Shown here one piece after another: positions 7,060-40,847 of a DNA stretch of 64,000 nucleotides. The position numbers and the translations under genes are program-made. Under the pieces are notes generated by a model. The model ran no database searches and was not told the DNA's origin. It was given only the letters and a program-made list of their open reading frames with translations. Every line of letters begins with the position of its first letter. The stretch's first letter is position 1. The DNA is from an uncultured Rhizobiaceae group bacterium (lineage in GTDB: Bacteria; Pseudomonadota; Alphaproteobacteria; Rhizobiales; Rhizobiaceae): NCBI GenBank assembly GCA_937958815.1, contig CALGMR010000006.1, positions 1-64,000 of the forward strand. The letters are read 5' to 3'.

Positions 7060-8358
7060 TTACTGGTTCAAAGCCAATTCGTCCACACCATCACGCTTGT
7101 ATATATCGTCGCGGAACTGCACCACACCGTTATCAGTGGACCATGCGCTGATATAAGTGAAATAGACAGGAACAGGTGCTGCAAGGCGAACGTCTGTTCT
7201 CTCACCAGAAGCAATGATGCTTTCGATGTTGGAACGCGTGCCTTCGGGCGTGTCTTTAGCAAGCCAAACCAGCAAATCACGCACGTTTTTCACGCGCACA
7301 CAGCCGGATGAATCGAAGCGTAAGAACTTGTTGAACAAGCCTTTTTGCGGGGTGTCATGCATGTAAACAGCATGAGGATTCGGGAAGTTGATTTTCACAG
7401 ATCCCATCGCATTGATGCGCCCGGGCTCTTGGCGGAAACGGTATTTCACTGCCTCTTCCGTGCTCCAGTCGATGGTTTCTGGCGGAATTTCGTTGCTGTT
7501 GCCATCAAAAACGAGAATTTTGTTGCGCGTCAGGTAAGTTGGATCCTTGCGCATTAATGGAATAATATCCTTGCGAATGATCGATTTCGGCGCTGTCCAA
7601 TAAGGATTGAGGTTCAACTCATAGATTTTGGAGTTCAAAATCGGTGTCTGGCGACTCACACGGCCCACAATTGCCGTATGGCGCTGGGACACACGGCCAC
7701 CCTCGACCGCTTCAATCTCGGCAGCTGGAATGTTGACCATCACATAACGGTCGCCCAGAAAGCCGGACATGGCGCGCAAGCGAACCAGATTTGTTTCTAA
7801 CTGGCCCAAACGAATATTGGCCGGCACGTTCATGGCGGCAAGGGAATAGCGGCCCAAAACACCATCGGCAGGCAAACCGTGACGACGCTGGAACCGTTTC
7901 ACAGCGGCACTGACATATGTGTCGAACTGATTTGAAATGCCAGCAGATGGTGACAAATCGCCAGAGATCATCAAACGCCTGCGCAAAACGCTTACGCTTT
8001 TAGAAGAAGATCCCAGTCTCAATTTTTTATTTGCTGGAACAACGGGCCAGCCACCGCCAGCAACGATGCCCTGATATTCGGCCAAAGCTTGTTGAATAAA
8101 ATCAATGGTTTGCGGTGCAAATACAGGCGTTTTGGAAGCAACATTTCGACGTTGTGTAGAGGCTGCATCAAACTTGGAATTCCAACGATCGCGGTTTTGG
8201 AAATTCAAAATCCGGTCAATTGCGGATTCTGCGTATGCAGATGGTGCGGCAACCATAGCAGCCCCTGCTGCACCCACTGCGCGCAGCAGTGAACGACGGC
8301 CTGCATTAGGCTTGTCCGCTTGGACGTTTGAATCCGTAATCTTCTTCATTTTCAACAC
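7060..8358 (-). CDS. ldtP: L,D-transpeptidase (YkuD/YcbB-like) with peptidoglycan-binding domain
   Basis: RRRLMISGDL...VSAAVKRFQRRHGLPADGVLG binding domain and YMHDTPQKGLFNKFLRFDSSGCVRVKNVRDL catalytic HxxxSxGCxR; symbol inferred from the nearby LdtR-like regulator. Confidence 0.88.
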   Translation of the reverse strand: MLKMKKITDSNVQADKPNAGRRSLLRAVGAAGAAMVAAPSAYAESAIDRILNFQNRDRWNSKFDAASTQRRNVASKTPVFAPQTIDFIQQALAEYQGIVAGGGWPVVPANKKLRLGSSSKSVSVLRRRLMISGDLSPSAGISNQFDTYVSAAVKRFQRRHGLPADGVLGRYSLAAMNVPANIRLGQLETNLVRLRAMSGFLGDRYVMVNIPAAEIEAVEGGRVSQRHTAIVGRVSRQTPILNSKIYELNLNPYWTAPKSIIRKDIIPLMRKDPTYLTRNKILVFDGNSNEIPPETIDWSTEEAVKYRFRQEPGRINAMGSVKINFPNPHAVYMHDTPQKGLFNKFLRFDSSGCVRVKNVRDLLVWLAKDTPEGTRSNIESIIASGERTDVRLAAPVPVYFTYISAWSTDNGVVQFRDDIYKRDGVDELALNQ

Positions 8359-8691
8359 CTTCGAATCGACAAGCGATTCAATTCTTCTAATTTCTTGGCA
8401 AACCTAGACGACACATCTTAACAGATGTTAACCACAACGCATTACGTAAGGTAACTTCGTTAAAAATACCATACCTTTTTTCTTGTGGCTTTTAAATGGG
8501 GCGAGATTGCAGGAAAGCTATAAGTTAAGGCGGGAAAACCAACTTATTCAACAAAAGGTGATCAACACGTCTTGGGGTTTTGGAGTTTCAAACCATTTTA
8601 AATCGATAAACGACCCATTTCACGACGTCTGCCTTATATGTCAGCCTTGCGATCATTGAGCCTGCCCTTGCATTGATCTAGCCTGTTTTGT

Positions 8692-9292: not shown

Positions 9293-9805
9293 TTACAGAC
9301 GGTAGAGGATCTGGTCTGTCCAGAAACGCTCAAGACGGTGAAGTGCCTTGTTGAGTGTTTCAAAAGATTCAGAATCAATCTCACCGATCTGTTCAAGAGA
9401 CTGTGTGTGACGCTCATAAAGCGCATCAACAGTTTGAGCCACGTCGCGGCCTTGCTCTGTTAGGCTTACACGAACAGAACGACGGTCTGTGCGTGAGCGC
9501 TGGTGATGGATGTAGCCCATATCAACCAGTTTCTTCAGGTTGTAGGATACGTTTGACCCCAAATAGTAACCGCGGGTGCGCAACTCGCCTGCTGTCAATT
9601 CTGAATCGCCCAAGTTGTAGAGCAATAGCGCTTGAACAGCGTTGATGTCGCTGCGACCCTGACGATCGAATTCGTCTTTGATCACGTCAAGAAGACGACG
9701 GTGAAGACGCTCCACCAATGTCAAAGCTTCCAGATAAACTGGTTTGATGTTTTTCGTTTCTTGTGTGGGTGTAACTGCTACACCAATCATGTCTGTGTTG
9801 TTCAT
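9293..9805 (-). CDS. ldtR: MarR-family transcriptional regulator, LdtR-like
   Basis: Winged helix: YLEALTLVERLHRRLLDVIKDEFDRQGRSDINAVQALLLYNLGDSELTAGELRTRGYYLGSNVSYNLKKLVDMGYI resembles rhizobial/Liberibacter LdtR; likely start MNNTDMIGV. Confidence 0.88.
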   Translation of the reverse strand: MNNTDMIGVAVTPTQETKNIKPVYLEALTLVERLHRRLLDVIKDEFDRQGRSDINAVQALLLYNLGDSELTAGELRTRGYYLGSNVSYNLKKLVDMGYIHHQRSRTDRRSVRVSLTEQGRDVAQTVDALYERHTQSLEQIGEIDSESFETLNKALHRLERFWTDQILYRL

Positions 9806-39926: not shown

Positions 39927-40376
39927 ATGAGCAACGTTCCAGCACCTGTGCTCAACGCAGATGAACTCAACGCTTATATAAAAGAAATCTATCCGCAAAT
40001 TCTGGATCAATATCCAGGTCATCACGTGGTGGAAGTTTCCCCCGGCAAAGTTGTGGTGAGAATGGATACGGATGAACGCCATATTCGTGCTGGTGGCACC
40101 GTTTCTGGCCCAACCCTCTTTTCATTGGCGGATATGGGCGGCTATGCCTGCGTCTTGTCTCATGTGGGGCGCGAAGCGCTGGCGGTGACAACCAATCTCA
40201 ACATCAACTTCATGCGCAAAGCCGAGCCCGGCTCTCTATTTGCCCATTGCAATATCTTGAAATTGGGCAAGCGGCTGATGGTTTTCGATTGCACGATTAC
40301 AGCTGGCTCGTCAGACGACATCATAGCCCATGCAACAGGAACCTATGCCATTCCACCGAGCAAAATTGGCAGCTGA
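39927..40376 (+). CDS. PaaI family thioesterase (hotdog fold)
   Basis: RHIRAGGTVSGPTLFSLADMGGYACVLS; start MSNVPAPVLN. Confidence 0.88.
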   Translation: MSNVPAPVLNADELNAYIKEIYPQILDQYPGHHVVEVSPGKVVVRMDTDERHIRAGGTVSGPTLFSLADMGGYACVLSHVGREALAVTTNLNINFMRKAEPGSLFAHCNILKLGKRLMVFDCTITAGSSDDIIAHATGTYAIPPSKIGS

Positions 40377-40433: not shown

Positions 40434-40479
40434 AAAAAATTGAAGCACGGCCCGACTTGGGCAAATCAGACCGTGCTTC
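40434..40479 (-). terminator. intrinsic terminator of the sRNA candidate (could also be read from + as the thioesterase 3' hairpin)
   Basis: Minus strand GAAGCACGG tctgatttgCCCaagtcGGG CCGTGCTTC AATTTTTT. Confidence 0.8.
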
Positions 40480-40562
40480 CCATATGACGCTTGGGGAAAC
40501 GCCAAATGCGCCCAAAACGCTCACTGCCTACCTGGCGGGGTGATGCAGTTTACGTAACGGCA
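40434..40562 (-). ncRNA. candidate intergenic sRNA, about 129 nt
   Basis: Own promoter TTGACA-N17-TAATAC (minus), no good ORF, predicted stem-loops ACUGC/GCAGU and GCGUUUUGGG/CCCCAAGCGU, and a 9-bp-stem terminator with U6. Confidence 0.6.
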
Positions 40563-40568
40563 ATTTTG

Positions 40569-40597
40569 GTATTACGTAAGGTAAGAAATTTTGTCAA
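40569..40597 (-). promoter_or_regulatory. sigma70-like promoter of the sRNA candidate
   Basis: Minus strand TTGACA (40592-40597), 17-nt spacer, TAATAC (40569-40574). Confidence 0.65.
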
Positions 40598-40720
40598 TCG
40601 TGAAATCGCAAATCGAGCAATTGAATTTGAAAAATTTCAATTTTTATATGGTAAAATAATACCGTATTTTTAATTCATTGTTTTTTATATGTAAATTTCA
40701 TACGCTCCGCAAAGTTCCAC

Positions 40721-40749: not shown

Positions 40750-40847
40750 GGCGTCAACAGCTCTGCAGGAATGCGGGGCTTTGTTTTTGTGGCGATCCCA
40801 ATCGGTTCAAAAACAAATCAGTTTTAATCAACATTAGGTCCAACCCT

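Follow-up and report, generated by a model that had tools for sequence, protein, structure and literature searches.

A candidate sRNA gene divergent from rplM

Does the intergenic region upstream of rplM in this uncultured Rhizobiaceae-group bacterium hold a gene for a small RNA and, if so, to which family would the RNA belong and what might it control? In the window (the whole stretch of 64,000 nucleotides that was analysed), rplM (from 40848, plus strand) is preceded by a thioesterase gene (39927-40376, plus strand; 4HBT by Pfam), and the gap between the two measures 475 bp in this source genome (G000). The candidate sRNA gene lies in the gap on the minus strand, divergent from rplM and convergent with the thioesterase gene. 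A preliminary description had placed here the promoter TTGACA-N17-TAATAC and a strong terminator, and both are indeed present. The sigma70-type promoter (40569-40597) consists of the -35 element TTGACA at 40597-40592, a 17-nt spacer and the -10 element TAATAC at 40574-40569, while the intrinsic terminator (40434-40479) has a 17-bp stem (40479-40442), a 4-nt loop with CCC and the tail AATTTTTT. The predicted sRNA would extend from 40565 to 40434 on the minus strand, comprising about 130 nt with a start estimated at 40565-40561. The start proposed earlier, 40562, did not agree with the RNA printed beside it (AAUUGCC...), which begins at 40565.

Because TAATAC matches TATAAT at only three of six positions, making it a weak -10, a promoter scanner did not list the sRNA promoter, and the promoter call therefore rests on the perfect -35 element together with conservation. 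We estimated how often a promoter of at least 9/12 followed at 60-250 nt by a terminator of at least 12 bp, on either strand, arises by chance: such a pair appeared in 6 of 2000 dinucleotide-preserving shuffles of the 475-bp gap.

As the preliminary description had claimed, the transcript holds no credible reading frame: no ORF of at least 12 codons was found inside it in any of the four genomes checked (G000, G008, G012 and G001). The only hint that the locus might encode a small peptide is a 30-codon GTG-initiated frame in G000, which runs past the predicted 3' end; neither G008 nor G012 retains its GTG, and G012 also carries a frame-shifting deletion, making a peptide product extremely improbable.

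The element occupies the same place in genus-mates

A DNA search of 101 relatives returned two clear homologues, G008 (96%) and G012 (84%), both from the same genus group; the matching named records (L045 and L046) are uncultured Rhizobiaceae-group MAGs. In both genomes the element is divergent from rplM, and an extra gene beyond the terminator widens the gap. Inspection of the gap upstream of rplM in every genus member showed that G001 and G007 are organised in the same way, with largely rewritten stems and three retained hairpins. For G006 the promoter/operator alone is clear, the fold z being -1.8 and the U tail absent. Altogether, five genus-mates have an orthologous locus in this position. 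The gap between the thioesterase gene and rplM spans 475-495 bp in G000, G001, G006 and G007, compared with 177-257 bp in genus-mates lacking the element. When aligned with G012 in 30-nt blocks, the sRNA region is 77-90% identical, and most of the rplM-side flank 37-67%. The terminator tails of G012 and G007 are weak.

A covariance model built from the three close sequences (G000, G008 and G012) scored 28.8 bits in G007 and 19.7 bits in G001, in both at the syntenic place. These scores are low, and a whole-genome search with the same model did not recover either locus at E<=10. Applied to 200 family genomes, covariance-model search yielded nothing convincing beyond the genus, the matches being strong terminators and chance stems as judged by eye. 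In a tree of rplM, rpsI and ldtR, genomes G000, G008, G012, G001 and G006 fall on one side, and G007 is basal to a branch without the element (G009, G011, G004 and G002), with an insecure rooting. The simplest reading, subject to that rooting, would be that the element is ancestral in the genus and was lost once.

Since every carrier genome has the element in the rplM upstream gap, it could conceivably act on rplM in cis, through interference or through divergent transcription. We regard this as very improbable: most relatives have rplM without the element, the RNA points away from rplM, and the -35 element of the sRNA lies ~125 bp from the predicted rplM -35 (TTGACC, ~40722).

Three predicted hairpins are conserved, with compensatory changes

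The predicted RNA of the source genome has a fold energy of -58 kcal/mol, compared with -39 ± 3.5 kcal/mol in shuffles (MFE z -5.4). The same three-hairpin fold was obtained for four orthologues (MFE z -4.7 to -5.2), consistent with the two further stems that had been proposed. Hairpin I (40509-40562, minus strand) carries the C-rich segment CACCCCGCC at 40542-40534, hairpin II (40481-40508, minus strand) has the loop UUCCCCAA with CCCC at 40496-40493, and the C-rich stretch of the terminator loop is GCCC. The preliminary description had the first loop exposing a C-rich segment. The segment is present, but with a predicted unpaired probability of 0.50 it is only about half exposed, in contrast to the loops of hairpin II (CCCC) and of the terminator (CCC), which are predicted to be fully exposed. 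The CCCCAA of hairpin II is common to all five clear sequences (G000, G008, G012, G001 and G007); the hairpin I loop core CCCGCCA occurs in four of the five, G007 among them, and in G006 as well.

The relatives, in which the first description had left covariation to be examined, show compensatory changes. In the three close sequences, all 131 pair cells of the 44 pairs are intact; three pairs are kept by double compensation, and the other, one-sided changes preserve pairing. Sliding the structure by 1-3 columns left only 20-44% of cells paired. With G001 and G007 added, in what is an imperfect alignment, 84.6% of cells are paired versus 75.9% after shuffling, none of 500 shuffles reaching 84.6%, and slid structures pair in 28-44% of cells. 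The locus thus combines several features expected of a trans-encoded bacterial sRNA, namely an intergenic position, its own promoter and intrinsic terminator, no ORF, and a structure conserved in relatives. Judged from sequence comparison, the orthologues, their synteny and the conserved base pairs lend good support to a candidate sRNA that has a promoter and a terminator of its own.

The RNA resembles alpha-r14 in build but not in sequence

The preliminary description suggested membership of an alpha-r family and an Rfam scan to settle it. Our scan of the window and of the five orthologous loci matched no family, even at E<=10. This also holds for alpha-r7 (RF02342, ar7), which, like other Rfam families, is comparable to the RNA studied here as a rhizobial sRNA that stands alone and has hairpins and a terminator. 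Four whole genomes searched with RF02342 gave no match either, with controls equally silent.

The nearest parallel is alpha-r14 (NfeR1; RF02344, ar14), described as an antisense regulator with three hairpins, CCUCCUCCC in each unpaired loop and free stem sequence (PMC10746234). Both RNAs are ~120-130 nt long with their own sigma70 promoter, three hairpins, C-rich unpaired loops and stems variable in sequence, and their antisense logic is likely similar. In contrast to alpha-r14, however, the RNA described here lacks the anti-Shine-Dalgarno motif CCUCCUCCC, its loops being CACCCCGCC, UUCCCCAA and GCCC, gives no match to the alpha-r14 covariance model at its locus, and has another promoter operator. 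Moreover, a genuine alpha-r14 gene with CCUCCUCCC loops lies elsewhere in the source genome (C5:106307-106426, L242; 88.2 bits), and true alpha-r14 is also found in G001, G007 and G012, with 80-88 bits across these genomes. Because no Rfam family matched and alpha-r14 is encoded separately, we assign the sRNA to a putative new family rather than to alpha-r, one that is alpha-r14-like in build and may be so in action. The locus would add an sRNA gene missed by standard annotation (Rfam), and it suggests more than one origin in Rhizobiales for an architecture of several hairpins with recurring C-rich loops.

An operator-like palindrome in the promoter is shared with turgor and cell-wall genes

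The sRNA promoter contains an operator that the preliminary description had missed and that is new here: a 13-bp palindrome, TTACCTTACGTAA (plus strand TTACGTAAGGTAA), at 40572-40584 on the minus strand, which lies in the spacer and ends in the -10 element. Its register after the -35 is identical in six genomes. A second TTACGTAA at 40550-40557 (minus strand), near +5 and two helical turns from the first, persists in G008 and G012 but not in G001 or G007. Of 398 family genomes, only 4 contain an exact match to the composite TTGAC-N8-TTMCSTWACGTAA, each time at the sRNA locus.

The two strongest individual features of the locus are its operator and its terminator stem, as they would be if it were a DNA element and not an RNA gene, that is, a site for a transcription factor combined with a strong terminator, the latter also protecting the convergent thioesterase gene. 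This alternative is improbable, given that hairpins I and II, and not only the terminator, are conserved with compensatory changes, that a full -35 holds its register to the operator, and that the terminator has a U tail on one strand only.

The 13-bp motif recurs in the source genome, with five exact TTACGTWACGTAA sites and about eight sites with one mismatch (C2:238150, C4:120095, C8:123185, C10:56762, C13:166448 and others). Genes adjoining these sites encode L,D-transpeptidases (ldtP), MscS, MscL, an aquaporin, an SLT_2 lytic transglycosylase, a Scaffold/PG-binding protein related to L,D-transpeptidases, response regulators and small secreted proteins. In the window itself, TTACGTAAGGTAA occurs at 8442-8454, upstream of an L,D-transpeptidase gene (YkuD, ldtP-like; 7060-8349, minus strand), and the same site is found at the ldtP promoters of G012 and G001 and, with one mismatch, of G007. 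Within the genus, each of the six genomes that carry the locus also has TTACSTWACGTAA; G004 and G002 have it weakly, and the other seven lack it. The palindrome TTACGTWACGTAA thus appears to mark a set of turgor and cell-wall genes, genus-mates without the sRNA being mostly without the motif, and its neighbours point to control of turgor and the cell wall. A literature search with the motif string found no relevant paper.

Which protein might bind this operator? A MarR-family regulator, LdtR by its position beside ldtP, is encoded at 9293-9805 (minus strand), and LdtR mediates osmotic tolerance (PMC3999280). The osmotic-stress regulon of LdtR in Liberibacter and S. meliloti resembles the present case in that the operator described here lies at the ldtP promoter of this genome and the co-regulated genes are osmotic and cell-wall genes; the published LdtR site, ATATTCCTTGTATTTTAA, however, differs from the operator here. 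Since the DNA-binding region of LdtR is unchanged in genus-mates without the motif, and the published site is different, LdtR is treated here as no more than a candidate regulator of the sRNA. CenR was rejected, its published sites being TGA-N8-TGA or AgTCAC-N-GTgAct.

Proposed function

We propose that 40565-40434 (minus strand) is probably a stand-alone, trans-acting sRNA of ~130 nt that would act as an antisense through its C-rich loops and may form the RNA arm of a turgor/cell-wall regulon. Its own sigma70 promoter would start, and its own intrinsic terminator would end, the transcript. The three hairpins would present the short C-rich loops, leaving the stem sequences free to drift, and the loops would likely pair, assisted by Hfq, with G-rich ribosome-binding regions of mRNAs, thereby lowering translation. 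A DNA-binding regulator on the TTACSTWACGTAA palindrome overlapping the -10 probably gates synthesis of the sRNA. As the same palindrome also marks genes for L,D-transpeptidase, mechanosensitive channel, aquaporin and lytic transglycosylase, the sRNA may serve as the post-transcriptional arm of that regulon. The operator thereby offers a concrete tie between the RNA and osmotic and peptidoglycan genes, which makes regulator, trigger and targets directly searchable.

The C-rich loops may plausibly pair with Shine-Dalgarno regions. We searched for the complement of loop II before start codons with the pattern TTGGGGAA-N3-10-ATG. Candidate starts in G000 belonged to lipoprotein-like, secreted and alpha/beta-hydrolase-like proteins and a LuxR-like regulator (named by eye); none of them recurred in G012, and we therefore claim no target. 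This lack of a conserved target, the conservation of stems and fold despite divergent stem sequences, and the decoy-like repetition of a similar C-rich motif in the loops could also be explained by a real RNA that binds a protein, for instance as a titrating decoy, and engages in no antisense pairing. We consider such a role unlikely, as the loops are C-rich and not GGA-type, and the nearest architectural parallel, alpha-r14, has been described as an antisense regulator.

A further reading is offered tentatively, and we would not put it quite at even odds: the RNA would represent a new family, alpha-r14-like in build yet unrelated in sequence, and would serve as RNA arm to a so far undescribed regulon for turgor and the cell wall, with TTACSTWACGTAA as the control site; one branch of the genus would have lost the RNA at the same time as most of the operator sites.

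Further elements upstream of rplM

Two additional features were observed on the rplM side of the gap. The first is another palindrome, GGTAAAATAATACC (GGTATTATTTTACC), at window positions 40650-40663 upstream of rplM. It can be recognised in almost every member of the genus, with or without the sRNA, and is degenerate in G006. The second is a terminator-like hairpin with a T-rich tail at window positions 40759-40780 (plus strand), in the predicted rplM 5' leader. In alignment it has a counterpart in several genus-mates with bases changed on both arms (GGCCTCGCAT...TGCGGGGCC), and it is possibly an L13 leader or attenuator.
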